Both the position numbers and the translations under genes were made by a program. From Cornus controversa (taxonomy: Eukaryota; Streptophyta; Magnoliopsida; Cornales; Cornaceae): 64,000 bases of DNA. Below, one piece after another: positions 26,387 through 53,642 of this stretch. Below the pieces are notes generated by a model that was not told where the DNA came from, made no database searches, and saw nothing but the letters and a program-made list of their open reading frames with translations. The first letter of the stretch is position 1. Each line of letters starts with the position of its first letter. Location of the stretch: NCBI GenBank assembly GCA_026545225.1, contig CM048849.1, forward strand, positions 50,022,336-50,086,335. Reading direction: 5' to 3'.

Positions 26387-26460
26387 TGGAGATGCGGTGA
26401 ATCAAACCTCATGCCTCTTGCATGCAAAGCAAGCGCTCTGCCATTTGAGCTACAATCCCA
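26387..26460 (-). pseudogene. Decayed tRNA-Ala(UGC) copy
   Basis: This is the U1 counterpart of the intact tRNA at 29428-29500. The anticodon arm still reads TGC and stays paired, because both sides of one base pair changed (CTCGC/GCGAG to CTTGC/GCAAG). The acceptor stem has lost pairs and gained a base, the T-stem no longer pairs, and the B box changed from GGTTCGATCC to GGTTTGATTC. Most changes are C to T or G to A, many at former CpG or CpHpG sites. It is not expected to be functional. Confidence 0.85.
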
Positions 26461-28700: not shown

Positions 28701-29427
28701 TAATAGATGGGCACTTCGGAAACTGTGACTCACTCTTAAACCTCCTATAGGCCTCACTTTATCTTCATATTAATTAAGTAGCATCTTTCGGCTCAACTTT
28801 ATCACTCTTCTAAATTACCAATTTACCCTTCTTTGGACAACCACATGACCCACCTACTCCATAACTCTATGTTGGCGCGCGCGCGCACACATATATAACA
28901 TCACTTAATTAAGGTTAAAGCACAATATACAAGTCTAGGCCTTGAACACATCTTCTAGTCCACTGCATGGAATCATAATAAACTATTGTGTTAGAATTTT
29001 GTGTTTGTGTTCTGTGGTTTGTGTAACACAATACATCACCTACGAATTAGCTATATAAGCTTGTTACTTAATTAATCTAAAGTAGTTATTATATAAGCGA
29101 TGTAACCGATCTAAAGTATTACATCGCTTACAAATCAACTATATAAAATTGTTACGTAATTAATTTAAAGTAGTTATTATATAAGCGATGTAAAATTGTT
29201 GGGATGTGAAATTGTTGTGTTGGCACATAAAATTTGTTTTACAAAAGAGGATTTGAGTACTACAAGTGATGTAACCTATCTAAAGTACATCACCTACAGA
29301 AGAGTAAGAAATTCTATTTTACAAAAGAGGATCTCTTGAGTTCCACATGACCATTTGATGATTTATTTTATTTCAAAAATGTGATATGTAATTTTTTTGA
29401 TAAGTATATCTCTTATAGTGGAAATAT

Positions 29428-29500
29428 TGGAGATGCGGGGGATCGAACCCCGTGCCTCTCGCATGCAAAGCGAGCGCTCTACCATTTGAGCTACATCCCC
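29428..29500 (-). tRNA. tRNA-Ala(UGC)
   Basis: The 73-nt minus-strand sequence folds as a complete cloverleaf: acceptor GGGGATG/CATCTCC (one G-U pair) with discriminator A; D arm GCTC...GAGC; anticodon arm CTCGC-TTTGCAT-GCGAG with anticodon TGC; T arm CGGGG-TTCGATC-CCCCG. The internal Pol III promoter is intact (A box TAGCTCAAATGG, B box GGTTCGATCCC). There is no intron and no encoded CCA, as expected for a nuclear tRNA gene; plastid tRNA-Ala(UGC) normally carries a group II intron. A decayed paralogue lies in the previous repeat unit. Confidence 0.95.
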
Positions 29501-29834
29501 ATTTGTTGAGAATGCAATTTTTTATTGAAACAATGCAAATACCATTTATTTAAAATAACAAGTATCTCATTCTTTAAAATAATTCTCGAAGTAACAAGGG
29601 TTGCAATGTCATTTTAATATATTACAATAAAATGTGTATTTGTAAAGAATTAAAAATAATATATTGATATATGTTAAAGCATAGAATGGATAACAAGATA
29701 TAAATTAAAATTAGGGCAAACTGCAAAAATAATCATTGTCTGATTGGCAAAAAAATATCTCGTCTATTTTTTTGCCATTAAATCCGCCTCAACTAATGAA
29801 AACCTCATGAGAGGGTTAATGTGACAAAAATACC

Positions 29835-31939: not shown

Positions 31940-33299
31940 ACTCATTCATGTCACTTGTGTTCTTTGGGACATACCATAAATGAAATGTGAAAGGTTGCTT
32001 ATATATCAGTGCTTTTTGGGGGTAAAAGGTATGTTATGCTTTTATATCAGCTCACTTCTTATTATGCTTTTCACTTTTTTTCAGGGCTTATAAAGATTTT
32101 AAATTGATTGTTGGCTACTGATTACTCTTTTTTTTTTTTTTTTCAAGAGTCGATTCCTTTACCAGACTTGAAATTGACTACCTAAAAGCGTTGGGTATTA
32201 TTAATATTAATTTTTTAAGTATTAATATTATTTTTCATTGTGTAATAATTTTATTAAGAAAAAGAAAAAGAAAAAGAAAAAGTAGATAGAAATAACCTTA
32301 CTTTGATGCCATAAAAGATGTGATTGAACTCCTAAAAAATTAAATTCTTTATTTTTAATGAAAAAGAAATGGAATCGGATGACATTTAAGAGTTATGGAG
32401 TGTCTACGTATATATATATATATATTATATATATATAATGTGTGGTAGTATAGTAGTACAGTTGCCATATGGCCCACCACACAAGATTAACCACGTGTAC
32501 ATAGAGCCAGTGAGAAAGAAAGAAAGGTAGTTGAAATCTTCAAATTTTTCATATTTTAATGGGACTGTAATGTGAACACAACTTTTCTTTTCTTTTCTTT
32601 ATTTATTTTTATCTGGTCAAATAAAATGAATTGAGAATATAATGTGAACACAAGACAGTCAAGATCGTCAATCGAGTCAATAAGAATAGGAGTCCGAGAC
32701 TGTGTGGGTGTATCTATTTTTTCAAGTCTCAATGTTCATTTATGACCAGACACAAGATTCTCCATTTCATGCATGGAATTGTTTATATATATATATTAAC
32801 AATTTTATATAAGGAAGTTCGATATTTATTATATCGATAGCAACTATAAATTAATGAGAACAATTTGCTGACTAGAAGTGGTAAAGGATAGATAGATAGA
32901 TATATTCATTGAATCGAAATCAGAAGATAAAAGAATATATATATATATATAAATAATTTTACATAAGCAAGTTAGATATTTCTTATATCGATCGCAACTA
33001 TAAATTAATGAGAACAATTTGATGATACATTGAACACTGACTAGAAGTGGTAAAGGATAGATAGATAGATAGATAGATATATTCATTGAATCGAAATCAG
33101 AAGATAAAAGAGCCGCCCGGTCAATGCCAATCGTGACTCTTTTTATTAGTGGGGGCAACAGAAACACCACGTGGTGTTTTATGTGACATGACACAATTAA
33201 AATAACCTTAATGGACTATTTTTATTAGTTAAACAAACCAGATTCGTACAAAACTGGCACGAGTCCTATTATCTTGTTCAAAGCCCACCAGTAAATGAG

Positions 33300-33313
33300 A
33301 TGACACGTGTCAT
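33300..33313. promoter_or_regulatory. Perfect palindromic ACGT-core (ABRE/G-box-like) site upstream of copy A
   Basis: ATGACACGTGTCAT is a 14-bp perfect palindrome around ACACGTGT, about 335 bp before the small gene. bZIP and bHLH factors bind this core, and ACGTG elements are frequent in ABA- and stress-responsive plant promoters. A second palindrome, ACCACGTGGT, lies at about 33168-33177. In copy B the first site is mutated (ATGACAAGTGTTAT near 41207-41220). Confidence 0.5.
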
Positions 33314-33505
33314 GCGTGGGTCCCATTTCATATTGTCTTGTTACGGAGTACAATGTGAACACAACTTTTGTTTGTCTTCTTGGTCAGTGTAATGTGAACG
33401 CAGGCAGGTCCAGATCGTCAAACGTAGAGTCATGACGTATACAACCAATATAAAAAAATGTTATTATGAGCAAAAAGCATGGGCTTTTTTTTGTAAACAT
33501 TGGCC

Positions 33506-33513
33506 TTTAAATA
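33506..33513 (+). promoter_or_regulatory. TATA box of small gene copy A
   Basis: TTTAAATA about 120 bp upstream of the ATG at 33634 is conserved at the same relative position in copy B (41410-41417) and copy C (47232-47239), each followed by a CCA-rich leader. A TGACGTA motif at about 33434-33440 lies upstream of it, also present in copy B. Conservation across three paralogues supports a real core promoter. Confidence 0.6.
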
Positions 33514-33633
33514 CATTACCATACCCACCAAATTGCACCAGTCACTTCTCAAAGCCTTCAAAGTTCAAACACAAACCACCAACAAAGACCGAAGAAGAAG
33601 AAGAAGAGCTTTTGTTTAAGAGAAGGATTAGAG

Positions 33634-33795
33634 ATGGAACATATGAGGAGAGAGATGATGATCAACGGTGGGAATTTCTCGAGGAGGTTTGGTTCTGGCC
33701 GTCCGATCCCCAAGAGAGGTCAGGTGAAGGCAGCGATTGTGGTGGGTCTGGCAAATTCTTTCGCTTCTATCTTCTCTTTGGGTGCTCGTTCTTAA
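33634..33795 (+). CDS. Small basic/hydrophobic protein, 53 aa, copy A of a three-member tandem family
   Basis: The frame runs from ATG at 33634 to TAA at 33793-33795 without introns. The N-terminal half is basic (MEHMRREMMINGGNFSRR, then SGRPIPKRGQVK at about 21-32). The C-terminal part (AAIVVGLANSFASIFSLGA, about 33-51) is uncharged and hydrophobic enough for a single membrane anchor, followed by RS. I do not recognise a named family. Support for coding: the frame is kept in all three copies, copy B differs only by two substitutions (H3Y, G20A), and the more diverged copy C keeps length, start, stop context and the SGRPIPKRGQVK motif. A TATA box and ACGT-core elements lie upstream. A 132-aa frame overlapping it on the same strand is broken in copy B. 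It could be a membrane-associated stress microprotein; that is inference. Confidence 0.75.
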   Translation: MEHMRREMMINGGNFSRRFGSGRPIPKRGQVKAAIVVGLANSFASIFSLGARS

Positions 33796-34027
33796 TGATG
33801 AAGCTGAACCCAATCTATATCTATCTGTAGAGAGATAAAGAGACGAAACCCAATTTTGATCATTTAGAGAGAGAGAGAGGATTGGGAAGTTCGTTGTATG
33901 TGTACAGTGTAAAGTTTGCAAGCTAATATGATGCTCTTTTTTTGAGCTTTTTTTTGTCATACTTTGAAGTATAAATGGGCTTGTGTGTACTATCCTATCT
34001 GGTGTGATCATCAACTAACCCTTTATG

Positions 34028-35360
34028 GTTTTAAACCTCCTGTAGGCCTCACTTTATCTTCATATTAATTAAGCAACATCTTTCGGCTCAACTTTATCAC
34101 TCTTCTAAACTACCAAGTTACCCTTCTCAGGACTACAACATGACCCACCCATAACTCTATGTTGGTGTGTACACACACATATATAACATCACTTAATTAA
34201 GGTGAAAGCACAATATACAAGTCTAGACCTTGAACATGTCTTCTGGTCCATTGAATGGAATCGTTATAAACTATTGGGTTGGAATTTTGTGTTTTTGTTC
34301 TGTATCGTTTGCGTAACACAATGCATCAACTACGAATGAGCGATATAAGCTTGCTACTTAATTAATTTAAAGTAGTTATTATACAAGCAATGTAACCGAT
34401 CTAAAGTATTACATGGCTTACAAATTCAATGGAAAATGTGATATTCGCAATCCAATATTGGACTCTCACTTCCACTCTATTTGATTTTTTCATAAAAATT
34501 AATACAATTATGTAGCTTTCAAAAGTGAAACCTATTAGAACGAAAATGTTGTTTCACCGAAACAATCAGCCAAAAAGATAAACCAATGGCCTCCCCAATT
34601 AACTGCCTATTAAGGCCTTGAGGCCCTCGGTTGATGGCTTCGGTCCATCCATATATATCATTACTCTTATTAGAATGTTGATCCAATTGTAACTTTGATT
34701 TAATCATAAAATTGCTCCAATGTGACAGAGATATTTTTTTTTACTAATAGAATGTGTGAATACTTTTGAAGGACAACAATGTCAATTTTATTAAAAATGA
34801 AAAACAATCTATGTAAAATATAAAGGTGGAATATGAATATCATTTCTTTTTCACTAATATCATTTGATCATGCCCGATATGAAATCTTAAAACTATGTAC
34901 ATAAAATCATAAGGAGCACATGATCTGTAAAGTTGCTCGATTATGACATTAAAAGAGGAGTAATACGGTCTATTTGTATTATATTTTTCATTTATTCATT
35001 CATTCATTCTTTTTTCTTCTTCTTCTTCTTCTTCTTCTTTTTATATATATATATAATTATGTGTGCGCGCGCGCGCGCACACATTACATTGCGTGGTTTA
35101 GACTTTTTTTTAATCAATGTCACAAGGAGACCCAAACAAGGATAGAGCTAGGATTTCATCTCAAGGGACACAGTGTATTTGATAAAAGTAAAAAAATGAA
35201 TAAAAAGAAGCCAACTAACAAGATAAATATAGATTGTTTAAATTAAGAGGCAAAGAAGAAAAAAAAAATCATTGCAAAATAAATTTTGGTAATATTTCTA
35301 TTGGATATAGTTGTAGGTTTTTGTATTTTGAAAGCTATGTATGAAATTACACTCATTGAA
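34028..35360. repeat. Tandem array unit U3 (partial)
   Basis: Matches about 28735-30625 of U2, starting TTTAAACCTCCTGTAGGCCTCA, but has internal deletions that remove the tRNA and the compound satellite. It ends at TGTATGAAATTACACTCATTGAA, just before the target site of the solo LTR. With copies A and B it shows that a segment running from U2 through the microprotein repeat was duplicated as one block. Confidence 0.75.
35061..35083. repeat. (GT)(GC)n(AC) alternating tract in U3
   Basis: Self-complementary GTGTG(CG)nCACACA run. It is the U3 counterpart of the tract at 30491-30536. Confidence 0.85.
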
Positions 35361-35426
35361 TTCATAAAATTACATAAATAATTTTAAATAAGAAGAAAAG
35401 GAAAAAAGGTTACTTACTACATACAT

Positions 35427-38150
35427 TGTCACGCCCCGAATCTTAAAGACCCAGTGCATGAGAAAATAATAATAATAACAATAATAATATTAATAAACTA
35501 TACACTTTGCCACAATAATCCAAAAACTATTTATCTATAACCAAAACAAACACAAATGGGTACAAACCAACCCTTGAAACATATATGTCCTGAAATATAC
35601 ATTATCCCAAAAGCATATCATCCAAATACATTGTATAAAAGCGTACCCAAGATAACACGAAAATGAAATATTACATATGGCATGCTAATCTATCATTTAG
35701 AATTTAAAAAAATATCATTATGGTCACAGCCATGCTAGGGGTGAGGAGAGTCCTCCATAGCAACACTCATTCCTGAAAAAAAATAATATCAACAGGGAGT
35801 GAGCTTACAATGCTCAGTAGGAATATGGTATGCAGTTAAACTATGTTCCTTTGGGCCTTATAACCATGACATATGCCATACAATACAAAGGACATGTTTC
35901 CTAACATCTAGTCCAAGGGAACTCCTAAAAGAATCATTCTAGAACTAGCAAGTAAGCAAGATGCAACAATACTACACAATTAAACATATGCAATATAATG
36001 AAATATCATAAACCGTAAGTTGCAACTACACATGGATACCGACTTATCAATCAAGATTCAAAATCAACAAATGGGATAACTCGGTATAGATCAACGAACC
36101 CCCGGACATACCTACTGCATGCACCGGTAAATGTTATTTTCGGGCTACTAACCCACAGGGAACAAACCTAGTGGCCACTATAAATGGGGATTTTCACCCC
36201 GAAAGCTATACCCTCGCTCAATAGTAACAGAAATTGAGTATCTCCCAAAATCATCAACCAATTCATGAAGGGGTACACATACTTTAATAATCATATTTAG
36301 CACGTCACACGCGCACATAACACATGTTAACCACGCAACTCATGTCATATAGTCCAAAACACTATCAGGACATGCTCACAATTATAACATTTTAAAAATC
36401 ATAGATTGATCAATTTACATCATGAAGACATTATAATAACATTAAAAATGCATCAACTCAACAAGCATCATTGCACCATTTAAACATGATTCTTAGAATA
36501 TAAATTCATCAAAAACAAATCACATAACTATCACTGTCAATGAATATAATCACTATCCATAAGTCAAAGCCACACACACACTCACACTATGCATGTATAA
36601 CACACACCATGACTATAAAACTCAAAGAATTCATAGGTTAAAAGCATAACACACCCCTACCTCAATTTGGAGTGAAAACTCCAAATTTTTCGATTATAGA
36701 AACACAACTATTAACGAACTACTTTCGTGGGAATGCTCCTAATTTCTGTCCAAAAACAGAATTTCCAACTCCTCACCTCCAACTTCAAAAATTCATAAAA
36801 ATTTCATTCCTTAAGCAAATTGCATGAATCCAAATGCAATTGAAAGTTTAAAAGCTAAACTTTGAAACTATCAATTCACCTTCTCAAAATCCCTAACCAT
36901 TTAAATCAGTTCTAAGACAAAAGGAACCATAAACATTCTGCGCAGAAATGAATTTTCAGCCTGAAGCTCCCAACTTCAAAAATTCATAGAAAAATCATTT
37001 TAAAACAAAATTACATGAAACCAAAGCCCATTGAAAGTTAAGAGACAATATTTTCATACCATCTATTCACTTTCATAAATAGAAAAATAATTCAGGTCCG
37101 TTTTTGAACAAAACAGTAGCAAAATTCTGTTTTCGAAACCAGTTTTTCAGCAAGAACAGATTATCTTCAAAAATTTGCCAAAAATAGAATACTAAATGAA
37201 ATGACATGAAACCAGAGCCCAAAATGAAGACAAAAGACTAAACTTTTATGCTGTAATTTTTGTTTCATGAGATCCCTTGTGGATCAAATCAGTTTTGATA
37301 AAGAATGCAGACCAATTCCGTTTTAAAAAAAAATGAAATTTCCAGCAGTAAGTTTCCCATTTCAAAAATTCATATCTCATTCATCTTAAAGCCAAATTGT
37401 ATGAAACAAATTTCAAATGGAAGCTAAAAGATCATATTTTCATACTATCAAATTAATTCAACCAAGTTTCTTACAAAAAAAATCACTTGAGGGCAGAATA
37501 TTCACTTCTTAATCTTGCAACCAATTTATAAACCTGAAAATCACTTAATATTCCCACACAAGCAAAGCTATTGAAGAATAATTACACATTCCTTAAATCA
37601 AGCAAAAAGTCTCAAATTTCTACCTAACTAAAGTCACCAAATCGGAGAGATGAACCGATCAAAACGACAAGGAAGACGAGTAGAACATCTTTGCCTCTTG
37701 TGATTTCTTCCAAATCTCACTCTAAGAGGCTCAATTTTTAGAGAGAGAGAGTAGATCTAGGGGAGTCAAATGCTCATACGTATAGAGAGAGAGAGAAAGC
37801 TGCCATCTGATTTCTTTTTCTTTAGTCTAACCTCATTTAACTCTCTCCCAAAAGTCTATATTCACAACTTGACCAACTCTCTTTCAAATTTGCAATCCCT
37901 CATTTTTCTTCTTAAAATCTTTCATTTATATTCTTCCAAAATTACAACTATTATCACTCCTAATTAAGAAGTCCGTGAAATTATTTTCTCGGGTTAACCC
38001 GCCCGTCCCAAGTCTATGTACCCGAAGAAAATGCACACAATATTTATATATCATAATTGTGCACACCACACCTTAAAATGGGCTTCATAATTTCACATAG
38101 CAAAATAAAATAAATAAATAAATAAAGAAAAAAAATTTCGGGTCTCTACA
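35427..38150. mobile_element. Solo LTR, 2,724 bp, with 5-bp target-site duplication
   Basis: The element begins TGTCACGCCCCGAA and ends TTTCGGGTCTCTACA, giving the TG...CA ends of an LTR and short imperfect terminal inverted repeats. It is flanked by TACAT on both sides (35422-35426 and 38151-38155). It holds no gag-pol frame, primer-binding site or polypurine tract with a second LTR, so it is a solo LTR left by recombination. The interior carries four or more degenerate repeats of roughly 180-200 bp built around CTTCAAAAATTCAT and ACATGAAACCA. The length and this internal pattern suggest a Ty3/Gypsy lineage, but I cannot assign the clade. The sister unit retains only its right end (30638-31166). 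Confidence 0.85.
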
Positions 38151-38352
38151 TACATCATACATATGTGCAAAAAGAAGAGTTTTAACAAAGAGAAGAAAAA
38201 AAGAGAGAACTTCGAAGTAAAAAAAATTAAAGTTTGATTAAACAAAAAAAAATTATTTTTTTAGTTCTAAGAAAATTAAATGAATTTAAATAGGAAAAGA
38301 GATAGGAAAGAAAAAATTAGTAATAATTTTAGAACTAAAAATTCTACAGGAG

Positions 38353-38386
<34 letters not shown>

Positions 38387-40079
38387 GACACCCTGGGCAT
38401 ACACTGGCTCTGCCCCTGGGGCATAAGATTCTTCCAGTGGCGCATCATACTATATTAATAATTTGGTAGTATTAATTAGAGAAGATGGATAACTCTTGTG
38501 GTTAATTTTTAATTATTGTAACTATAAAGTAATGAGAACTATCTCATACACATGAACTGAACAATGGACTAGAAGTGAAAATTTGATGGATTCAATGGCT
38601 TGGAATTAGAAAATAATAAAGGAATAAATATCATCCACGTGTAATGCCTATCATGATTCATTCTATCAGTGGAATTAATAAATTACATCCATAATTGAGA
38701 CTGGATTATATAATACACTAAGATATATAATAATAAAAAAAATGGTGTGTAAACCTTACTTTAATGGAGTACCCTTTTATCAGTGGATTGAACAAAATAG
38801 CACGTGCTCTTTTATGTGACATGACCATTAAATAGTAGAGTTGTATTCCACTAGAAATAAGGCTTGCACATCATTATATATATCACACTCATTCATGTCA
38901 CTCGTGTTCTTTGGGCCATACCATAAATGAAATGTGAAAGGATAGTTGATATCAGTGCTTTTTTGGGGGTAAAAGGTAAGTTATGCTTTTATATCAGCTC
39001 ACTTCTTATTATGCTTTTCACTTTTTTGATTTTATGTACGCGTACTATATAGTCTATTCAATTGATTAAACTTGACCGTTGTAATATTTTGCAGGGCTTA
39101 TAAAGATTTTAAATCGATTTTGGCTACTGATTACTCTTTTTTTTTTTTTTTTTTTCAAGACTCGATTCCTTTACCAGACTTGAAATTGACTACCTAAAAG
39201 CGTTGGGTATTATTATTATTATTTTTTTAAGTTAGTGGAGTAAAGAAGCATAAAATTAAACCATAAATATTATTTTTTATTATGTAATAATTTTATTAAA
39301 AAAAAGAAAAAGAAAAAGTAGATAGAAATAACCTTACTTTGATGCCTTAAAAGATGTGATTGAACTCCTAAAAAATTAAATTCTTTATTTTTAATGAAAA
39401 AGAAATGGAATCGGATGACATTTAAGACTTATGGAGTGTCTACGTATATGTATATATTATATATATAATGTGTGGTAGTATAGTAGTACAGTTGCCATAT
39501 GGCCCACCACACATGGTTAACCACTTGTACATAGAGCCAGCGAGAAAGAAAGAAAGAAAGGTAGTTGAAATCTTCAAAATTTTCATATTTTAACGGGACT
39601 GTAATGTGAACACAACTTTTCTTTATTTATTTTTATCTGGTCAAATAAAATGAATTGAGAATATAACGTGAATACAACACAGTCAAGATCGTCAATCGAG
39701 TCGATAAGAATAGGAGTCCGAGACTGTGTGGGTGTATCTATTTTTTCAAGTCTCAATGTTCATTTATGACCAGACACGAGATTCTCCATTTCATGCATGG
39801 AATTGTTTATATATATATATATTAACAATTTTATATAAGCAAGTTAGATATTTCTCGATCGCAACTATAAATTAATGAGAACAATTTGATGATACATTGA
39901 ACACTGACTAGAAGGGGTAAAGGATAGATAGATAGATATATATATAGATAGATATATTCATTGAATCGAAATCAGAAGATAAAAGAGCCGCCTGGTCAAT
40001 GCCAATCGTGACTCTTTTTATTAGTGGGGGCAACAGAAAGACCACGTGGTGTTTTATGTGACATGACACAATTAAAATA

Positions 40080-41102
40080 GAGGAGTGCTAGCGGCAATCG
40101 TTCAAGCGAGTGTCCTTACACAGTCGCTCCATTGATTGGTGGAAATCAATCTCCAAAATTAAATGCTTTCATGCAATAAATGTCCTACTTTTTCATCAAT
40201 CAATATACCCTTCTAGTTCTAAAGTATTTACAGTGGTGCCATCAACAAATAAATAAAATTATAAACATAAAATATTAAAAAACTTTTATTAATATTTTTT
40301 TTTATATTGCCCTACTTTTAAATATTTTTAATAATTTATATACCTATTATAATCATTTCCTATATAATTTTTATAAATTTGTAATTATGGTTAATTGAAT
40401 AAGTATACAGATTATTAAAAATATTTAAAAGCAAGAAAATATAAAAAAAAATATTCATAAAAATATTTTAATACTTTAAAAATATGTTCTTTTATTAAAA
40501 TTTTGTAATTATGGTTAATTGAATTAAAGAACATATTTTTAAAGTATTAAAATATTTTTATGAATATTTTTTTTATATACTTATTCAATTAATTAAAATA
40601 ATCTATATACTTATTCAATTCATCTATATACTTTATGTTTATAATTTTATTTTTATTAATATTTTTAATAATCTATATACTTATTCAATTAATTAAAATA
40701 ATCTATATACTTATTCAATTCATCTATATACTTTATGTTTATAATTTTATTTTTATTAATATTTTTAATAATCTATATACTTATTCAATTAATCTATATA
40801 CTTTATGTTTATAATTTTATTTTTATTAATATTTTTAATAATCTATATATATATTCAATTAATCTATATACTTTATGTTTATAATTTTATTTTTATTAAT
40901 ATTTTAATTCTTTATGTTTATAATTTTATCTGTTTGTTGATGGCACCACTGTAAATACTTTAGAACTGAAAGGGTATATTGATTAATGAAAAAGTAGGAC
41001 ATTTATTGCAGGAAAGCATTTAATTTTGGAGATTGATTTCCACCAATCAATGGAGCGACTGTGAAAGGACACTCGCTTAAACGACTGCCGCTAGCACTCC
41101 TC
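40080..41102. mobile_element. Long-TIR non-autonomous element with 9-bp TSD (Mutator-like)
   Basis: Ends GAGGAGTGCTAGCGGCA... and its inverted counterpart ...TGCCGCTAGCACTCCTC match over about 210 bp per arm with few mismatches. The direct repeat ATTAAAATA flanks it at 40071-40079 and 41103-41111. Long TIRs and a 9-bp target duplication fit a Mutator-like MITE. The sister copy A shows the uninterrupted site (CAATTAAAATAACC at about 33194-33207). The interior has no frame; it contains an inner palindrome (about 40445-40575) and AT-rich tandem repeats of CTATATACTTATTCAATT and TTTATGTTTATAATTTTAT (about 40575-40925). Confidence 0.9.
40445..40575. repeat. Near-perfect AT-rich hairpin inside the Mutator-like element
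   Basis: The left arm (AAATATTCATAAAAATATTT onward to ATATGTTCTTT) and right arm (AAAGAACATAT onward to AAATATTTTTATGAATATTT) are reverse complements over about 50 bp around a spacer of about 30 bp. This could be a smaller nested MITE or a fold-back expansion of the host element. Confidence 0.75.
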
Positions 41103-41409
41103 ATTAAAATAACCTTAATGGACTATTTTTATTAGTTAAACAAACCAGATTCGTACAAAACTGGCACGAGTCCTATTATCTTGTTCAAAGCCCACCGGTA
41201 AATGAGATGACAAGTGTTATGCGTGGGTCCCATTTCATATTGTCTTCTTACGGAGTACAATGTGAACACAACTTTGTTTGTTTTCTTGGTCAGTGTAATG
41301 TGAACGCAGCCAGGTCCAGATCGTCAAACGTAGAGTCATGACGTATACAACCAATATAAAAAAATGTTATTATGAGCAAAAAGCATGGGCTTTTTTGTAA
41401 ACATTGGCC

Positions 41410-41417
41410 TTTAAATA
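41410..41417 (+). promoter_or_regulatory. TATA box of small gene copy B
   Basis: TTTAAATA, 128 bp before the ATG at 41545, in the same context as in copy A (TTGGCC before, ACACTACCATACC after). A CATAC repeat has expanded directly downstream compared with copy A. Confidence 0.6.
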
Positions 41418-41544
41418 CACTACCATACCATACCATACCCACCAAATTGCACCAGTCCCTTCTCAAAGCCTTCGAAGTTCAAATACAAACCACCAGCAAA
41501 GACCGAAGAAGAAGAAGAGCTTCTGTTAAAGAGAAGGATTGGAG

Positions 41545-41706
41545 ATGGAATATATGAGGAGAGAGATGATGATCAACGGTGGGAATTTCTCGAGGAGGTT
41601 TGCTTCTGGCCGTCCGATCCCCAAGAGAGGTCAGGTGAAGGCAGCGATTGTGGTGGGTCTGGCAAATTCTTTCGCTTCTATCTTCTCTTTGGGTGCTCGT
41701 TCTTAA
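41545..41706 (+). CDS. Small basic/hydrophobic protein, 53 aa, copy B
   Basis: Intron-free frame from ATG 41545 to TAA 41704-41706. It starts MEYMRREMMINGGNFSRR, carries SGRPIPKRGQVK, and ends in the same hydrophobic segment as copy A. By eye it differs from copy A at only two nucleotides in 162, both amino-acid changing (H3Y and G20A), which fits a recent duplication. The promoter is also conserved, except that the ACGT palindrome upstream is mutated and the Mutator-like element now lies about 440 bp before the ATG. No named family is recognised. Confidence 0.72.
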   Translation: MEYMRREMMINGGNFSRRFASGRPIPKRGQVKAAIVVGLANSFASIFSLGARS

Positions 41707-41939
41707 TGATGAAGCTGAACCCAATCTATATCTATCTGTAGAGAGAGAAAGAGTCGACACCCAATTTTGATCATTTAGAGAGAGAGAGGATTGGGAAGTT
41801 CGTTGTATGTGTACAGTGTAAAGTTTGCAAGCTAATATGATGCTCTTTTTTTGAGCTTTTTTTGTCATACTTTGAGGTATAAATGGGCTTGTGTGTACTA
41901 TCCTATCTGGTGTGATCATCAACTAACCCTTTATAGTAT

Positions 41940-43430
41940 TTCACTAAAATCAGACGGTGTTAAGGTAGGTTGAGAAATTATTAGACATTTCGAGATGTCA
42001 TGCACTCAAAACATGTTTTGATTGTCCCGAATCAACATTTATGTCCGACTTGTTGACGAACAACTTTTGAATTTTTGTTCAACCCTGACTTCTTGAGTAT
42101 GACCTCAAATTGAAGTTCCAAATTTGCTAAACACGATCTTAAATTAAGTTCGGATGATAGTATTAAGGCTGGTAATATTTTGGGTTCTGAGTTTGAACCG
42201 TCAAAAGCTTTTTGGTGGTTCAAACGTGTTCGACCCCTATGGTTTTAGGAGCTCTACTTTGTATACACCGTTGGGAATATATCAAAAATTAATAACACAA
42301 CCAATAGACAAACAATACCAAACACACGAATTTACAATTTACATGAAAGGGTGGGGTGGCCTTTCTCTACTATTCATATGAATCCTTCCTTAAATGTCTG
42401 TGTGTATATATATATATATATATATTTTGGATTTGGATTTGGATTTAAAAGTTGAGAAAACAATATTTGAGTTGTGATTTAGGCTTCACAGGCTTCAGAA
42501 TCTCGACATTTAAATGGACAGACACTTGTCTACAAATTTCTTATTACTTAATAACTCAAACCTAGGAAATAAATAAATCAAGCGTCTTTTTTTTTTCAAA
42601 TATGTGAGTGCTCTATTTTAAATTCCAGGCGTAAATGCAACAGTGAGAAACAAAAATGATTTAAAATTAAGAAATGAAATATGAGAATTCCAACTTAATA
42701 TTAAACAATAGAGAATGTTGATTTTTGAGTAAACTTCAACGCATGACAAAAGGATTGATGATAGTGAAAGATCTGTCTTCTCAACAAATTTTATGTTTAA
42801 GAAATTTTTTTTTTTTTTTGTATAAAATTAAAATTTTTATACAAGAAAGGCGGATATTTGATATAAGAAAAAGTATTCATTCCGTTCGGTACACTCTGAT
42901 ACTTGTTGTATTACATCACACGTGTATTATATGAAGAATTAAGATGTGCCCGAAGCACTTAAATATGTATACTTGTTATGAATAGTGGCAACAACTTTTA
43001 ATTATCTTAGCTATAAAATAATGAGAAGAATCACATGGTACATTGAACATTGATTAAAAGTGAAAAGGGATAGAAAGATAGATGGATATTCGTTGAATTG
43101 GAATTAGAACGTACTAATAAAGCCGCCTGGGCAATGACTATCGCCCTTTTTTAGTGGGAATCAACAAAAACACCACGTGATCTTTTTCTTTTATGTGACA
43201 TGACATGACATGACACAATTAAATAACCTTAATAATATAGTATTATTAGTTGAAAACATTATTTTAGTGGAGTACAACTCTGCATTCTGCCCCAGTCTAG
43301 TTGTATATATCTTCGGTCTTCCCCTTGTCCAAAACCAACAGTTTCCTTAAAAGACTTGCATACCCTTGTGGAAAAGACTAAAAATACTCCTTAATTATTG
43401 TTATTATTATTATTTTTTGGCAGTAGGGTG
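41940..43430. other. Intergenic stretch with a diverged partial microprotein-repeat segment
   Basis: 41940-42530 shows nothing recognisable apart from a (TA)n tract at about 42406. 42538-43400 matches 45245-46300 (AATAACTCAAACCTA..., TGTGAGTGCTCT..., CACGTGATCTTTT..., AAAAGACTTGCATACCCTT), a segment that in copy C precedes the small gene. Here the matching sequence stops at an insertion carrying LINE sequence, and no small gene is present. Confidence 0.55.
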
Positions 43431-43582
43431 TGTTCAATTATAATTTTTAAAAATTTTTATAATCTTTTAAAGAGTTAATACAAATCTGATTGTATTCAAT
43501 TATGATTTTTAAAAAGTTTAAAAAAGACTAGGTATATTAAAAAAATCATAGATTTTAAAAATATTTCATTAAGTGGTTGATT

Positions 43583-45135
43583 TTATTCTTGGAGTTTGCT
43601 CTGGCAAGTCGTTTCCATGATTTTTGGAATGGAGGTGCAGAGTTCATGTTTTGATAAGTGTTTGGGACTGAGGAAGAGGGTGAAACAGTGGTTGATAAGA
43701 CTTCTGGTGTTTTTTTTTTTTTTATTTGTTGGGTTTACTGGGTCTTTCAACATTAGGTCATAAGAAGGAGATATGTGAGCCGAGTTGGATTTTGGGTGGG
43801 CTGGGTGAGAAGAGTTTGAAAGGAGGAGGTTGGTCAGGTGTGGAGAATCTGGAGAGGATGGTTGGTGGGTTTGGATGGGCTCGACAGAGTGTGTAAGAGA
43901 GTATGGGCCAGGGTCTGGGTTAATACCTTTTGGGTCATTTTTCTTGGAAATGAGGAGTGTTTTGGCGTCGGCATGGCGGATTTTGGAGTGTGTCATTTGG
44001 TGTGAACTGCTGCATGGATTTGTCAGTTGAGAAAAGATTTTTGAAGGGACAGCAGGTCTATTTGCATGCACACTATCTCTGGTAGTAGGATTCATTTCAC
44101 CATGCCAAGCATTGTCCCTATGCATGGACGGATTGGCTTCATAGTTGCTTAACAAGTTACTAAGTTGCCCTTCGCTTGAATAAGACGGTGAGTCATTCTT
44201 AGACCGGGATGACTTTGATCTTCCTTCTTGTTTTTGGTTTTTTTGGATGAGCCTTCCGATAGTCATCTCCATTCTCAACCAAGGTCCATATTCATGCTCT
44301 GAACCATTGGGGACTTCTGTCGAACAACACCCCTTCAAAGTGTGGCCGAGGTATCCACAACGATAGCAAAAATTTGGAAGATGTCATAGCAGAAGGAGAT
44401 CCAAATGTCATGAGTAACCACTTTTAAGGGAACACCTCCTCCTAAAGGTTTTGTGACGTCCACCCCTACTTGGATTCTAGATGCTGACCTCCATCCTCTC
44501 ATTTATCTCTTATTTCAACCTGACTGTGTTTCTCAAAGCTTTTCGCAATTTTTATCCCTATATTCAGGGTGAGACATTCCAGAGGAATTTTTTGCATAGC
44601 CACAGAGAACATGGCATCATTAATTGCTCTATTTTCCTTCCATTTAACCAAGATCATAAGTTGTCCCTTAAAAAATTAGGGGCTGCTAAAGGCCACTCTC
44701 TATAAGTCCTTTTCATATGTGAAAACAAATTGAAAAGTTCTTTTGGATAGTGAAAATACCTTGAATGAGCACTTCCATGCATCAGACATAACTTTTTTGA
44801 GGAGTCCTTGTTCGACAGATTTCAGTGAGTACTTTACCAAATAAGCTAAGTTTGCAATGCTCCACTTCTTCGCGAATATCCTTTTCATCGGCTTTAATAA
44901 ATTCCGTTTCCTTTTTTATGAAGTTAAAATCTCTTAATTGGGATTCTAGGGCCTTTATTGAGGATGGTAAAGTGCAGATCAGAAAAGATGGAATGAGTGG
45001 AAAGAGAAGGTAAAGGGAACAAAGGTAAGAGAGTAGGGAGCAACAAGTTAGGGCAACGTTAAGAGAGTGCAGATGATGAGAGGAGAGAAAAAGTGAAACA
45101 AAAGATTCAGATGAGATGTTTTCTGAAGACACCAC
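43583..45135 (-). pseudogene. Decayed LINE ORF1 (DUF4283/zinc-knuckle type)
   Basis: Minus-strand translation in shifting frames gives LRDFNFIKKETEFIKADE and DIREEVEHCKLSLFGKVLTE, then SDAWKCSFKVFSLSKRTFQF and a zinc knuckle CYRCGYLGHTLKGC (CX2CX4HX4C, 44368 to 44327). This is followed by YGPWLRMEM and a long Ser/Pro/His-rich low-complexity tail of about 200 residues. This order (DUF4283 domain, CCHC knuckle, GPWLR, disordered tail) is that of plant L1-type LINE ORF1 proteins. Frameshifts and stops break it, and no endonuclease or reverse transcriptase follows. The longest open piece (44338 to 43583, 251 codons) begins inside the knuckle, so it is not a complete gene. Confidence 0.75.
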
Positions 45136-47231
45136 TCATACCCCCAAGTTTAGAACCAGGGACCCTCTACGCAGAGGAATATTTTAATCCAATTCCAATC
45201 CTAATAATAATACCTCTTTTTGACAAATACTTATTTATAAATTTTTGATTACTTAATAACTCAAACCTAGAAAATAAATAAATAAATCGAGCCTCTTTCT
45301 TTTAAAAATATGTGAGTGCTCTTCTTTAAATTCCAAGCGTAAATGCAATAGCGAGAAACAAAAATGATTTAAAATTAAGAAATGAAATAAGAGAATTTGA
45401 ACTTAATATTAAACAATAGAGATTTTTGATTTTTGAGCAAACTTCAACACATGACAAAAGGATTGATGATAGTGAAGGATTTTGAAGTCTTCCCAACAAG
45501 TTGAATCATCTCTTTCTTTTAAGGAAAAGATTTAGTATTCAAACTTTGTTATAGACATGTAGCATGTGTTTTTGCTTTTGTTTTAATTTTATAAAAAGAA
45601 AAATTAAAAAAATTCAACCGTGCCCCAAAATATCTACACGAAGAGCTTTTGTTTAAGAATATGAGACACTACTTTTTTTTTTTTCAATATAAAGATCATC
45701 TTAGGTTTTTTTTTTTTTTTTTTCCTTTTTTTCTTCATTAAAGTAGGAATATCTTATTTCCACCAAAAAAAAAAAACTCCTAAAACCTACAATTGTACTA
45801 CAAATATAATAATCTCAATGTTCATCTATGAGCAGACACAAGATTGTCCGATTCATGCATCGAATTGTATTAACAATTTTATATAAGAAAGGTAGATATT
45901 TCTTATGATTAGTACCAACAAATTTTAATTATCTTAACTATAAAATAATGAGGACAATCACATGGTACAACAAACATTGGTTAAAAGTGGAAAACGATAG
46001 ATAGATGTTCGTTGAATTTGAATTAGAAAATAATAAAACCGCCTGGGCAATGCTTATCATGACTCCTTTTATTAGTGGGAATCAAACAAAACAGCACGTG
46101 ATCTTTTATGTGACATGACACAATTAAATAACCATAATAACATAGTATTATTGAAAATCTTATTTTAGTGGAGTACAACTCTGCTAGAGTCTCGTTATAT
46201 ATATATATATATATATTGTACAAAACCATCAGTTCCTTAAAAGACTTGCATACCCTTATTGAAAAGACTAAAAATACCCCCTTATTTATTATTTTTTTGC
46301 CAATATAAAATTCAAATAATTTTTTTTTATTAGTTCATTATATATGTTTATTAGGAAAAACCCTTGCTGTCTGAAGAGAGAGTATGTTACTTGTTAATTT
46401 TATGTGAATTGTCAACTGTTAGGGTTGTAAATGAATGAAGTTTAGCATAGTTGAGTTTTAGTTCAATTGAATTCGGCTCGAAATCAAGACGAACTTGAAA
46501 AGCAGAGTTTGAGTTCAACTTATCACAATTTTGAAAAGTTTGACTTCAACTCAACTCGACTAGCGTAATAAAAAAAACAATCTTAATATTGTATTTGTGT
46601 TCATGCTCGATTTGAACTCTCTTTTAAAATTGTTTTGGCTCGTTAACTTATTTGAGTTCACACAAACATATCTTGATGAACTTATATTTATGAATTTATA
46701 TAAGTCTACATATACATATTTTTATGAGTGTGTTCACGACTCCATGAACAAATACGAGTCTACGTTCACTATATATTCATGAACACATACTAATTTGCAC
46801 GAACTTACATAAGCTGAACATAACATTATTCAAAATTAATTTGTTTATTAAACGAGCTTTAAAATTAAGCTCAAGTTGAACTTGTTTAGATAAGCTTTAA
46901 ACAACTCAATTTCAAATTGGTTACTACAAATTCAGATCATTTGTTTGCATCACTATCAACTATAGTATGTTTCAAAAGCAAATCAAATAACATGTGTGGC
47001 TCCCACTAAAATAAAATAAGAAAAAAAAATCAATTCACATCTTCCAAAATTTCACATGTTATCATGTTATAATGTGAACACAACTTTCTGTGTTTTCTTG
47101 GTCAAATAAAATTAAACGTGAATGTAACGTGAACCCAAGAAGGTCAAGATCGTCAAACGAAGAGTCATAATATAACACTTATATTTATATTCGAGAAGTT
47201 ATTATCGGGGGTATTTTTGTAAACAATTTCC

Positions 47232-47239
47232 TTTAAATA
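47232..47239 (+). promoter_or_regulatory. TATA box of small gene copy C
   Basis: TTTAAATA, 121 bp before the ATG at 47353, followed by ACCCACCACCATTTGCACCA. The leader of copies A and B has the same order (ACCCACCAAATTGCACCA). Confidence 0.55.
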
Positions 47240-47352
47240 CACTGGCATACCCACCACCATTTGCACCACAACACAATACAGTCACTTCCAAAGTGTTCAA
47301 AGTTGAAACACAACCACCAAACCAACAAAGAAGAGCTTCTCCTGTTTAAGAG

Positions 47353-47517
47353 ATGACATTTGTGAGGAGAGAGATGATGATGATCAACGGTTGGAATTTC
47401 TCGAGGAGGCTTTCTTCTGGCCGTCCGATCCCCAAGAGAGGTCAGGTGAAGGTAGCGATTGTGGTAGGCCTGGCACAGTGTTTAGCTTCTATCTTCTCTT
47501 TGGGTGCTCGTTCTTGA
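47353..47517 (+). CDS. Small basic/hydrophobic protein, 54 aa, copy C
   Basis: Frame from ATG 47353 to TGA 47515-47517. The N-terminus is MTFVRREMMMINGWNFSRR (one extra Met codon), followed by the identical core SGRPIPKRGQVK, then VAIVVGLAQCLASIFSLGARS. Relative to copies A and B, substitutions fall mostly in the first five residues and the hydrophobic segment, while the basic core and the C-terminus SIFSLGARS are unchanged, and silent changes are present. A diverged paralogue that keeps frame, length and core is the best evidence that this family is translated. No named family is recognised. Confidence 0.75.
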   Translation: MTFVRREMMMINGWNFSRRLSSGRPIPKRGQVKVAIVVGLAQCLASIFSLGARS

Positions 47518-48059
47518 TGCTCAAGCTGAATCCAATTTATATCTATCTGTAGAGAGAGAAAGAGATGAAACCCAATTTTGTTAATTTATAGAGAGAGAGG
47601 GGATTGAAGTGTTGAGATTTTGAAACACATGAATATATGGTTCGTTGTATGTACAGTACTGTAAATTTTGCAAGTTAATATGATACTCCTCTTTTCCATT
47701 AGACTGGCCTCATATTTTGAGGTTTTATATGTGTGTCCCTATGTGTTGTGATCATGCACTAACCCTTTTATTTGATTGAAGAGCAATAAATTGAGGCTTT
47801 CTTTCTATGTAATTAGTGAGTACTCTTTTTTTAAATTCTAACCATAAATGCAATAAAGAACAACCAAAATGATTTAAAATTGAGAAATAAAAATGAGAAT
47901 TTGAACTTAAGATTGAACAATAGAGTGTCTTTGATTTTTTAATGAACTTCAACAAAACTCGATTATGACAAAAAGAACCAACAACAAGATAGCTAGAAAG
48001 ATAGTCTCTTGATTAAAAAATACAAAAAGTTTGATTTGAAAAAAAATAGAGAAAGCGGT

Positions 48060-48588: not shown

Positions 48589-51500
48589 ATGAAAGCCATA
48601 GTGATAACGAGTCCCGGTGGCCCAGAAGTGCTTCAACTACAAGAAGTCGAAGACCCAGAGATTCAAGAAGACGAAGTGTTGATCAAAGTCGAAGCCACCG
48701 CTCTAAACAGAGCCGACACGCTTCAACGAAAAGGCTCATACCCACCACCCAAAGGCGCGAGTCTGTACCCTGGACTCGAATGCTCAGGAACAATCGAAGC
48801 TATTGGAAGAAGCGTCACTCGTTGGAAAATCGGCGATCAGGTAATTTCCAATTTTATTCTCTCATAAAATTTTAAGTGAATTATATATATGGATAGATAG
48901 ATAGATATAGTTGGGTTTGTCTTTGGTTGCTCTGAGTATGGTGGAAATTGGTACAAAATTATAATATCTGAAACTCTAATGCTTTATTTATTTATTTTGG
49001 GGGCGAAAATGTAATGCAATGTTATTGTTTGCTATTGTATATTTTGTTTGGTTGCTAAGAAATTGGAGGGGAAGAGAGGAAAAATGGAATTTTGACATGT
49101 TTCTAATTCATGTAGTTGTGGTTAATGTGGTTAAAATGGAATTTTGGAAATTTGGCCCTGGACTTAGTGGAGTGGTAAAACAGGATCTTTGTGGTCTATT
49201 CCAAATAACTGGAACAAGATTTTGTTGGGTTAAGTTGAATTGATGTTTTTGACTCAGATAAATAATAGTTTTCTCTATGCCTTGAAAGTAAAAATTTATT
49301 GTAGAGGAAAGAAGAAAAGGAGATATTGGGTCTGTGCTTTTGTGTTACCTTTTGCCTTTTGGTGTCTGAAGAGAAAAAGCCTGTCCTCCTTTAAGCAGTC
49401 TTAAGCGAAATAGTTGTCTGTTTCAGTTGCGTGGCAGAAATTGTAGTTTTTTCAGGTTGTGAATTTAGTTCCCAGCAACCAAAATAGTAGTTGATTTCAT
49501 AAGCTGAAAGTTGTTATTCACTTAGTACAAGAAAATGACATCCTTGTCATATTTTCTGTTGATTTCATCTTGTTGATGTTATTAAATATTAGGATATTTA
49601 CTTTCATATTTTTCACATTGAATCCCTCCATCCATATATATACATATATATATTTGGTGGGTTTTAATTTCTATCTTACAGTATTATTTGAAATTTAATA
49701 ATTATCTGGGCTTGTGGCTTTAAACCGAATGTACCTCTCAAAGAGTTCTACAGGTTTAGGAGAGTGAAGGTTGAATGCATAATGACTTTGGCCAGTTTGT
49801 TTGATTTCTGGGTTGTAATGTTATGGGTCAATCTCTATTTGCCTACCAATGATTTCTTGATGAATCAGCTGTTTGGCCAGCCTGATAGAGTTGAGGCAAC
49901 TTACAAATTTTTGACAATGTTAGAATATCCATTTATCCCTCAATAAGAGATTAACAAATGAGGAAGTTACTTGCTTCTGACCTTCCAGTAGTTTCGGAGT
50001 ACTATTTCCAGGAATTGATTGGAGCATATGTGTTAACTGTGCAGTAATATGAAAATTTGTTGTAACAGGTATGTGCTCTTCTTAGTGGAGGAGGGTATGC
50101 CGAGAAAGTAGCTGTTCCTGCTGGACAAGTACTTCCTATTCCGCCTGGTATTTCTCTGAAAGACACTGCTAGTTTTCCTGAGGTGGCATGCACTGTCTGG
50201 TCTACTGTCTTCATGATGAGTCGGCTATCCGCAGGGGAAACATTCCTGGTACCTTATGAGCCTATTTTCTTTCTAATAGAAACATGATTGTCTACCATAT
50301 GATATGTTGCAATTGCAAATATTGTGAAACAACTGAATTTACTTCCTACTAGTGCAGTGTTGATATTTAAATAATGTCTCTGTAAGTTTATATTGTAGTG
50401 CCATTGAGACCAGCTGAAATACAGCAGATGTAGGGACATAAAAAAATTTGCATTCTTTTCAAACATGTCACAATTGTCAATTTAAGGTTTATCTAATTCA
50501 CCAACAGCCATGTATTTCTTAGAATCTCTAGAAAAGGTAAGATCATGCTCATTATATATATCGCATCCTGTGTTGCCACTTCTGATTTTCAAAATGGGAG
50601 TGAGGAAGATGAAAAACATGTAATAATTATGTTAAATGGTTCAAAAGGGAACCACAGATTGATATAATATCATGTTAAGTTGGTGTAACGAAATTATTTG
50701 TTTATATTGAGAATCTCGTCGTGGTGCTCTCCTGCTTTCTTCTTTCCATAAAACATAACCACTGTTGTAAAATTCTAATGTCGTTCCTTTTGAAACTATT
50801 AAATGAGGACTTGTAAAATTTCAGATACATGGGGGTTCTAGTGGAATTGGTACATTTGCAATTCAGATAGCTAAATACCAAGGAGCCAAAGTATTTATCA
50901 CAGCAGGTCAAGTATCATAATCTTATTTTGTTATTTTAAGACATGTTTGATATTGGAAATTAGTTTAAGTTCCATTTTTTCATAATAATGTATTTTTGAC
51001 AATTTTTTTAATCAGGAAATGAGGAAAAATTAGCTTATTGCAAGGACCTTGGGGCTGATGTCTGCATCAACTACAAGACAGAAGATTTTGTTGCTCGTGT
51101 GAAGGAAGAAACAGGAGGAAAAGGTTTATTCTCTATAGCATCACAATTTTATACTTTAGTTTTTTGATTTTAGTTGGAAGCTGCTCTAGCTTCTTCTTCT
51201 TCTTCTTCTTTTCTTTATCACTTAAAAAGATAGACCGATAGACTACACCTTTTCTCATATCACATTAATTCAGGTGGAGAAAATTTAATCTCAAAATGTT
51301 CAATAGGTGTTGATGTTATCCTCGATAATGTTGGGGGACCATACTTTCAGCGAAACCTTGACATCCTAAATGTTGGTGGGAGGCTTTTTATTATTGGCTT
51401 TATGGGTGGAGCAGTAACAGAAGCAAACCTTGCATGTATGCTTGCAAGGCGCCTCACAGTGCAAGGTATGTACAGAAACCTTTGCTCGTACAGGATTTTA

Positions 51501-53642
51501 ATTTCTGTAGGATTTCCAGTTTAAACAATATAATACATTCATCCGGGGTATTGCGATTAATTTTTGCCATACAAGGTAACTATATGTGACAAATAAAGTA
51601 AAAAAGGAGAATCAACTTGGTTATCACATGAAAATTTCAAGAATGCTTTTATGTGTAAACGCCATGGTTTAGTTGCTATTCTTGAAAAAAAAATTAGATT
51701 TATGAACATTCATGAGTGTATGGGCACAACTTGACATCTTGTATTCTGTGTGTTGGTCGATATCATACCTGTTGATATGTAAAAACTGCCACACCTTGAT
51801 AGTAGAATGTTGACACGAGAGAACTTAGTGACCAACATCATTGAATTTTTAATCTGTTGGATTTATGCTGATCCTGCAAATCAATATATAGGCTGTGACC
51901 TCTGATTTCCAAAGGAAACAATGGGCGTAACTACCCTTTATAACTTCTATATGACAGATTGAATTTTGGACTACATAAATATTTTATGATTTTTTTTTTC
52001 TTTTTCAGGAAATCCCCAAAGAAAAATATATACTATTCCTTCTTTTCTATTATAACCACTACATGCATTTCACGAAATTGTGCACCTCAAGTAGGAGCTA
52101 AAAAAGATACCCACAATCCCATTGAAAGACATCACAATCCCTTTTGAAAAAAATGATGCAGACTAATTCTAGTGACTTTCAAGCTGGTTACTTTTGTAAT
52201 TGACTCTACTGCTTTTTCAATAAAGGCTGGTTCTTTGATCAAAATTTGAATTACTTTCTACTTAGGTTGTTCCTATGTTTCATATATGAAGCCTCATTCA
52301 AAGCTTTAGAGAAAGGTGCTATTGAGACATTGAACCCTTATGGAGTTGTGATATCCGATAGAAATCACAATAATTGGCCAATGGAGTAAGTCATCTTTAA
52401 AGTGGATTTGCTGTGTGAAGAGTGTGTTATGAGTTATGACCCATGGCCGCTGCTTGGTGTGGGTAAACTGGATGCTTGATATTGTACAGCAGCATTAGGG
52501 ACGTTAAGACTGTTGCTTTTTTGAAGTGCTGGCAATGATGCAAATGAATGCATCCATACGCTAGCAAGTGAAGTGTTTAACACCCCCCTCTTTCCATTAA
52601 CAATGTAAGCTTTAAAGTTGGCTGCTATGCCACACTGTACAATGACATTTGTAGAAGGGTTTGTAAGACACTCGGTAGAATATGATAAATTAAAAGAAAA
52701 GCAAATGTCTCATATTTTTTACCCAAGACCGGATGTGAAAAGGGGGTGGGTTAGTGTCAGTTAGACAACCGATAGTAAAACTTATGTCAAATATTCTTGA
52801 TGAGTTCTCACTCAATTGGATAGTATTCATTTGGCCGACTCCATTCATATGGGATTAAGGCAAGGATGATGATGATGAAGGGTCTGATATTCTTATTGCC
52901 TTAAAAAAAAAAAACTGCTTCATGTTAAACCCATTTTTTACCGACAGATGAGTTAAAATGTAAATTTGAAGGTCCGAGAAGCATTTCTCATTATCAGAAT
53001 GCTGTTTTTGTGGGAAGATTCTGAAAGTTATGATGGAGGGTTGGATTGCTCACCTTTTTACGTCATTTAGGCAAATCTGCCTCACTTTGTGTATGTGTCA
53101 TCACAGTTTCCCTTTAGGTTTTTGTTGAATTTTCAGGACCATCTGCAAAGTTGTGTCCCCAACATGCAATTTATAATTTTTTCAGTTTAAGATTCCAGTT
53201 TCTTTTTCCATGAGCCGTTCTGCTATACAAACTGGCAATCATGAACAAAAGCTTCCTTTGGCCATATGAGTGATTATGCAAGGGATAATATTCCCTAGAA
53301 AAGTGGATTCTTTGTTTGGACTATTGACATCCTCTTTGGTATAATCAACTTCTTTTATTTTTCATCTGGCAGAGAATTATTGGCATAAGTTGAATGTTGT
53401 ATCATGTATGTAGTTCTATATCAAGCCAAAATTGTTTGTATGCAGCGGCTGGCTTGCGAAACAGAAGCAAAGAAAACAAAGCTCTGATCGTCAGTGAGGT
53501 GGAGAAGAACGTATGGCCTGCAATCATTGCAGGCAAGGTGAAACCCGTAGTGTATAAATATCTTCCATTATCTGAAGCATCAGAGGCTCATCGGATCATG
53601 GAAAGCAGCAAGCATATTGGAAAGATACTCCTCCTTGCATGA
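48589..53642 (+). CDS. Zinc-independent NADPH:quinone oxidoreductase, PIG3/TP53I3-like, 325 aa, 6 exons
   Basis: Exons: 48589-48840, 50069-50248, 50825-50906, 51016-51123, 51307-51465, 53446-53642; 978 nt in one frame, GT-AG introns. This is a medium-chain dehydrogenase/reductase: it opens [20 protein letters not shown], then [20 protein letters not shown] (about 35-54) and [14 protein letters not shown] (about 61-74), the GroES-like quinone oxidoreductase half without structural zinc cysteines. The Rossmann half has the NADPH motif HGGSSGIGT (146-154), then [18 protein letters not shown] and [12 protein letters not shown]. The C-terminus [20 protein letters not shown] ... [18 protein letters not shown] is characteristic of the PIG3 branch. 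The expected activity is one-electron NADPH-dependent reduction of o-quinones in the cytosol. No targeting peptide is apparent. Length fits the family. Exon 1 is GC-richer than the rest. Intron 5 (51466-53445) holds a LINE tail and a coding-like fragment. Confidence 0.95.
52275..52389 (+). pseudogene. Short coding-like fragment in intron 5 of the quinone oxidoreductase gene
   Basis: An open stretch encodes [15 protein letters not shown], then a further 18 residues and a stop at 52387-52389. The piece [11 protein letters not shown] resembles a segment of eukaryotic release factor eRF1 (KALEMGAVETL in the conserved C-terminal region). The rest does not fit that protein. It could be a degraded retro-pseudogene piece or chance. 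Confidence 0.2.
52790..52890 (+). mobile_element. RTE-type LINE (or derived SINE) 3' tail in intron 5
   Basis: GGCCGACTCCATTCATATGGGATTAAGGCAAGGATGATGATGATG is the characteristic 3' end of plant RTE elements, ending in a GATGAT repeat instead of poly(A). Only about 100 bp remains. A related tail (CATATGGATTAAGGCAATGATGATG) ends the LINE remnant at 19373-19770. Confidence 0.6.

Follow-up and report, generated by a model that had tools for sequence, protein, structure and literature searches.

Three short frames arranged in tandem within a 64,000-nt window of the Cornus controversa genome (assembly GCA_026545225.1, contig CM048849.1, hereafter C5, 50.02–50.09 Mb of 67.7 Mb) appear to belong to a small, real-looking duplicated plant gene family, which is wider than the trio itself and unnamed in the libraries searched. 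That the genome is a plant's is borne out by 31 chlorophyll a/b-binding matches (best E 3.8e-50). The gene-family part of this explanation is held with high confidence. The fuller reading, according to which each of the three frames (A, B, and C) is a short gene that has a TATA-like promoter and an unbroken coding frame, and encodes a microprotein of a dispersed family that would combine a docking motif with an amphipathic helix, is considered moderately probable.

The Tandem Genes and Their Duplication

Microprotein genes A (33634..33795), B (41545..41706), and C (47353..47517) of the window are located on the forward strand and were confirmed as intact frames of 53, 53, and 54 aa, respectively, C having diverged most among the tandem copies. 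Their translations agree with a preliminary description of this DNA, in which three frames of this length with a common core had been distinguished at these places, and SGRPIPKRGQVK is common to all three proteins. It was also correctly stated there that two nucleotides distinguish A from B; both differences turned out to be replacements (0 silent), and A probably has the derived letter at both sites, as C matches B there. The stop context, described as common, is shared only by A and B, which end with TAA, while C ends with TGA. Similarly, C was said to have silent as well as replacement changes, and both kinds are indeed present, although only two silent ones were found among the 16 A–C differences (53 aligned codons). 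Across A and B, other reading frames are open as well. The three copies also contain a short ORF that overlaps the stop codon (MMKLNPIYIYL in A and B, and MLKLNPIYIYL in C) and is absent from D, a relative described below.

In the self-BLAST comparison, the duplicated gene unit of A (33196..34032, forward strand) was 95% identical to that of B (41103..41940, forward strand) over 847 aligned bp, with an additional upstream block of 2.4 kb at 87%, whereas A and C shared 72% identity over 748 aligned bp. Judging by these values, A and B appear to be recent duplicates and C seems older, as had been proposed. Directly upstream of the B unit, an inverted-repeat element of 1,023 bp (40080..41102) is inserted, with a 9-bp target duplication; it is absent from A. 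A transposon origin of A–C themselves was considered and seems unlikely, as the protein search scored eight candidates, with four matches at E ≤ 0.001, which speaks against a repeat.

A Dispersed Family in the Genome

Since A, B, and C resemble one another through local duplication, their likeness by itself carries little weight against chance, and the independent support comes from relatives located elsewhere in the genome. The first of them, D, is a fourth close relative, found in a protein search with an E-value of 2.1e-10. It encodes 64 aa, has an ATG and an intact frame, and is localized at C5:64438042, about 14 Mb from A–C on the same contig. When the D locus was compared with the window and 10 kb on each side, two weak matches (E about 4e-4) were found beyond the microprotein frames, and these were taken as chance. 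The genome search with the core of D revealed, besides A–D, two weak matches on C1 (46% and 44%, E-values 2.2 and 3.5), both being intact short frames with RRPLP[KR]RGQIK, and the core of one of these C1 frames led to a third one on C3 (75%, E 2.8e-6), as well as to a weak C3 match elsewhere (E 2.6).

A degenerate DNA pattern, corresponding to P-[KNRSQH]-[RS]-G-Q-[VIM]-K and run genome-wide (772 Mb), identified 19 sites, compared with one for the reversed control. Eleven of the 19 sites, distributed over contigs C1, C3, C5, C6, and C8, were assigned to the microprotein family and divided into three subfamilies; this number is a lower bound, as members departing from the pattern escape the search. 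All 11 members are short intact frames, with the motif placed 18–32 residues past the first Met. The tandem trio of the preliminary description was hence borne out but incomplete, A–C being part of a dispersed family.

Subfamily I is composed of A, B, C, and D, all on C5. Subfamily II (sites L013, L014, and L015) gathers E (C1:83821522), F (C1:83824186), and G (C3:66329104), while subfamily III gathers H (C3:49219731; listed also as L018/L029), L030 (C3:49243544), L038 (C6:48967788), and L039 (C8:53404992). E and F are located 2.7 kb apart on opposite strands, and the distance between H and L030 is 24 kb. Members of subfamilies II and III share with A–D the short intact frame and the P-[KR]-R-G-Q-I-K motif followed by a similarly patterned segment, but they have longer C-terminal tails and other N-termini.

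As for the excluded sites, L023, L026, L040, and L041 have no Met ahead of the motif, whereas in L027 and L032 the motif lies inside frames of 306 and 146 aa, respectively. L028 (LPKRGQIK) and L036 (PQRGQIK) are short and have an upstream Met, failing only the post-motif profile or the exact motif. In the profile test, the 17 residues past the motif were scored against a profile built from A, C, D, E, F, and G, with P obtained from shuffles. All four members of subfamily III fitted this profile of subfamilies I and II (P = 0.0008, 0.0138, 0.0010, and 0.0289), in contrast to none of the eight other motif hits (P = 0.21–0.90). The test supports the 11/8 split, but not fully independently, because the split had been made by eye beforehand, partly on the same residues.

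Promoters and 3' Ends

Each tandem gene is preceded on the forward strand by the TATA-like box TTTAAATA, with no ATG in between: at 33506..33513 for A (−128 from the ATG), 41410..41417 for B (−135), and 47232..47239 for C (−121). A TATA box about 120 bp upstream of each frame had been reported, and the distances of 121–135 bp bear this out. The box of C is placed in a block found also upstream of D, whose own TATA box lies at −92. This common C–D promoter block, GGGGTATTTTT...CCTTTAWATACAC, scored above 500 of 500 shuffles, while the similarity between the A and D promoters was weaker, being reached by 15 of 500. Altogether, four of the 11 promoter pairs compared (A–B, A–C, C–D, and E–G) beat all 500 shuffles and the other seven did not. 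In nine of the 11 members a TATA-like box was found at −92 to −169, a count in AT-rich DNA that is uncorrected for chance; H and L030 have no such box within −90 to −170, and in G an ATG at −104 lies between the box and the start. Loose 3'-signal-like hexamers (AATATG, ATAAAT) occur within 350 bp past each stop, with AATAAA in C only, which is weak evidence given the AT-rich DNA.

These features support the view that A–C arose by tandem duplication and are built like ordinary genes. The suggestion of stress regulation as their common trait was not supported, as the upstream region of A contains ACACGTGTC, the aligned region of B contains ACAAGTGTT, and C has no match there.

Selection on the Encoded Proteins

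The sense protein appears to be conserved between divergent members of the family. Within the 28-codon cores of A–H, changes are most frequent at third positions in each of the 27 non-identical pairs, and in 22 of the 28 pairs there were fewer amino-acid changes than in simulation (uncorrected P < 0.05; the pairs overlap in members), which suggests that the proteins are real. For the D–E core, 16 amino-acid changes were observed against 23.6 expected, and for E–F 8 against 15.9 (0 of 3000 simulations in both cases); D–G was reached in 1 of 3000, and A–E and A–D gave P of 0.004 and 0.031, respectively. The six core pairs with no signal were A–B (identical), A–C (0.39), B–C (0.40), C–D (0.11), C–H (0.085), and E–G (0.26). 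Over the whole aligned length, A–D (0.043) and B–D (0.036) were just under 0.05, and C–D gave 0.147.

When the six reading frames were compared where A and D align, pN/pS was lowest (0.53) in the sense frame. For C–D, its value was 0.62 against 0.61 in one antisense frame containing stops, and for A–C it was 1.55 and not the lowest of the six. In agreement with the earlier interpretation as microprotein genes, the sense frames look coding. Alternative-frame or dual coding over A and B was rejected, as D has stops in, or changes, those frames.

Among the tandem copies, the silent and replacement counts (2 and 14 for A–C, 2 and 12 for B–C) gave no signal of protein-level selection. Paralogue dN/dS was 0.51–0.58 against D, but 2.3 for A–C and 1.9 for B–C, i.e., dN above dS. 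Ratios of about 2 for A and B versus C, together with the two A/B differences both being replacements, would speak for A, B, and C being drifting relics of a local duplication, perhaps with one sole working copy. We regard this as improbable, considering that all three frames are intact, that the motif and the last ten residues are identical in A, B, and C, and that the A–C coding sequence is less diverged than its flanks, though gene conversion could be the cause of the latter.

Between A and C, 17 of 162 coding positions differ, compared with 40 of 147 upstream (Fisher P = 0.0002) and 39 of 141 further 3'. The reduced divergence concerns both replacement sites (14/121, P = 0.002 against upstream) and silent sites (2/38, P = 0.004 against upstream and 0.002 against distal 3'). 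The tract of low divergence extends from about 33619 to about 33858, i.e., it continues beyond the stop and corresponds to the coding sequence plus about 63 bp; the farthest upstream A–C windows (33349–33438) are also low, with 14–15% divergence. For A–B, the coding sequence (2/162) is not below the upstream (6/303) or distal 3' region (1/149). Gene conversion between the copies would explain the tract, and so would nucleotide constraint.

The unusual conservation of A–C silent sites, as well as the further frames open across A and B, would also fit another explanation, which treats the frames as upstream ORFs or as exons belonging to larger genes, or takes the conserved strand for a non-coding RNA. 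Several observations speak against it, and we regard it as highly improbable. Within 1.5 kb of genomic sequence after A there is no ATG-led same-strand ORF longer than 28 aa, the longest such ORFs within 1.5 kb after B have 75 and 63 aa, and the next long ORF after C is a quinone oxidoreductase exon about 1.1 kb further on. Moreover, pN/pS against D is higher in the remaining forward frames, the paralogues retain the protein motif with different DNA, and two tRNAs are all that Rfam matched in the window at its gathering score.

Protein Architecture and the Membrane Question

The family core consists of P-[KR]-R-G-Q-[IV]-K and a predicted amphipathic helix, with the motif taking the form R-P-I-P-K-R-G-Q-V-K in A–C. 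When A, C, D, E, F, and G are aligned, no variation occurs in columns P24, P26, R28, G29, Q30, K32, S45, and S48. AlphaFold2, applied to the three window proteins only, predicted a helix at 28–51 (block pLDDT 85 and 77; pTM 0.34), as well as a doubtful N-terminal helix at 2–21 (pLDDT 58). The helical moment was above shuffles (P < 0.1) in seven of the eight members scored, the helices of A and B being identical, and ordinary in D (P = 0.23). A PDB profile search with A–D gave 16 sequences at E ≤ 10. Ranked first was 8erw chain C2HR4_8r (E 5.4e-6), presumably a designed helical repeat protein, with a best stretch of 20 residues and none passing alone; matches to MoeA and XTRP3 at E near 1 were taken as chance.

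A hydrophobic span is usually regarded as able to cross the membrane when its 19-residue Kyte-Doolittle mean is about 1.6 or more. Among the eight proteins scored, this value was reached by A and B (1.73), C (2.08), and D (1.97), and missed by E–H (0.72–1.27), the helix of which is less hydrophobic. Membrane association, assumed earlier for the tandem proteins, is therefore plausible for A–D but is not general. The members of subfamily I could be single-pass small membrane proteins, perhaps subunits of membrane complexes, with the basic end facing the cytosol or matrix and helix 33–51 across the membrane, subfamilies II and III having functionally diverged. Such a topology is in agreement with the hydropathy of A–D and with a net charge of +7 to +9, most of the basic residues of A–C being ahead of the helix. 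Nevertheless, Asn, Gln, or His occurs in the middle of the segment, and the values for E–H indicate that membrane spanning is not the conserved trait of the family; we find this explanation rather doubtful. In subfamily I, SRR-[FLI]-x-S could conceivably mark a mitochondrial presequence.

What stays constant in the family is the motif and the helix, while membrane-like hydropathy is limited to A–D among the eight members scored, which leads us to favor a dock-plus-helix adaptor, membrane-seated in subfamily I. Its layout would comprise a variable N-terminus, the conserved extended P-[KR]-R-G-Q-[IV]-K, and a helix about 18 residues long that is hydrophobic on one face and whose serines are conserved in subfamilies I and II. 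The basic segment may dock on an acidic membrane surface or on a partner protein, and the amphipathic helix may bind a hydrophobic groove or rest in the membrane surface, the helix of subfamily I being probably hydrophobic enough for membrane seating. The protein would then be a small, non-enzymatic adaptor or modulator, and the conserved segment hints at a partner shared by the family. This mechanism is proposed tentatively, at somewhat less than even confidence, and the helix, transcription, location, and function of the family are predicted or inferred, whereas the frames, their kinship, and the conserved sense frame of the divergent paralogues are shown. It may be further speculated that the genes represent a plant-wide unnamed superfamily, in which one dock motif and one amphipathic helix are kept and the rest changes, some members working on membranes and others on soluble partners, but we hold this broader idea to be somewhat unlikely.

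Comparison with Known Families

The preliminary description had named no family for A–C, and this was upheld by the Pfam-A search, in which A, B, and C matched no family at E ≤ 1. For D, E, F, G, H, L030, L038, and L039, the search gave nothing above the curated cut-off, the sub-threshold matches being DUF5908 for H and DbpA for L039. Patterns derived from subfamily I were also searched for outside plants, and none of the 43 pattern stretches in viral contigs, nor any of the 22 in bacterial and archaeal genomes, was confirmed as a relative.

Plant proteomes may contain "uncharacterized" proteins with the PKRGQ motif, a possibility that lowers our estimate of the novelty of the family. A literature text search for the motif letters (e.g., RPIPKRGQVK and PKRGQIK) found no paper printing the motif in a relevant context. 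Two papers matching the PKRGQ string, on a phosphatidic acid biosensor (PMC10925316) and on synthetic erythropoietin signalling receptors (PMC11779867), appeared to be unrelated, and none of the plant microprotein papers among the matches listed seemed to describe the motif. The three look-alike frames can now be placed in a family delimited by a motif that can be searched for, which may be of use in plant gene annotation and in microprotein screens.

The DVL/RTFL, ARGOS/OSR, and DUF3339 proteins are likewise small, plant-encoded, and multi-copy, and they also combine basic and hydrophobic parts. A–C seem to differ from these families in that they matched no Pfam family at E ≤ 1, and, to our knowledge, a core composed of PKRGQ and a helix is not a feature of any of the three.

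Sequence conservation of the microprotein genes

The tandem microprotein genes A and C (53 and 54 aa) were compared over a low-divergence tract covering window positions 33619-33858 (A) and 47353-47580 (C). Since silent sites, as well as the initial ~63 bp of the 3' sequence, are conserved at least as strongly as replacement sites, the nucleotide pattern of this tract suggests gene conversion or nucleotide constraint. In A, B (the second 53-aa copy) and C, a short ORF overlaps the microprotein stop codon (33795-33830, 41706-41741 and 47517-47552, respectively); the overlap of stop and start is TAATG or TGATG in all three copies, and the ORF reads MMKLNPIYIYL or MLKLNPIYIYL. This ORF is absent from D, the 64-aa relative located ~14 Mb from the window.

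Other genes and features

A quinone oxidoreductase-like gene with two exon-like frames (48589-51521, plus strand) carries the Pfam domains ADH_N and ADH_zinc_N, and among PDB entries its first frame best matches a putative quinone oxidoreductase, at E 2.4e-19. On the minus strand, an open frame of 266 aa (43586-44383), showing a weak, sub-threshold zinc-knuckle match, is perhaps a mobile-element remnant. The same strand holds tRNA-Ala(TGC) (29427-29501) and a weaker tRNA match (26387-26459), found by Rfam only; both sit where the window contains duplicated blocks. A tandem array of seven chlorophyll a/b-binding ORFs lies outside the window on the same contig, C5 (contig positions 58301524-58334007). 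They occupy ~33 kb, and five have an identical score.

Inverted-repeat element upstream of B

A 1,023-bp inverted-repeat element (40080-41102) is inserted upstream of B and is lacking at A. To a large extent it equals its own reverse complement (74.6%), its ends are GAGGAGTGCTAGCGGC, and it is flanked by the 9-bp target duplication ATTAAAATA. Target duplications of Mutator-like elements are typically 9 bp.
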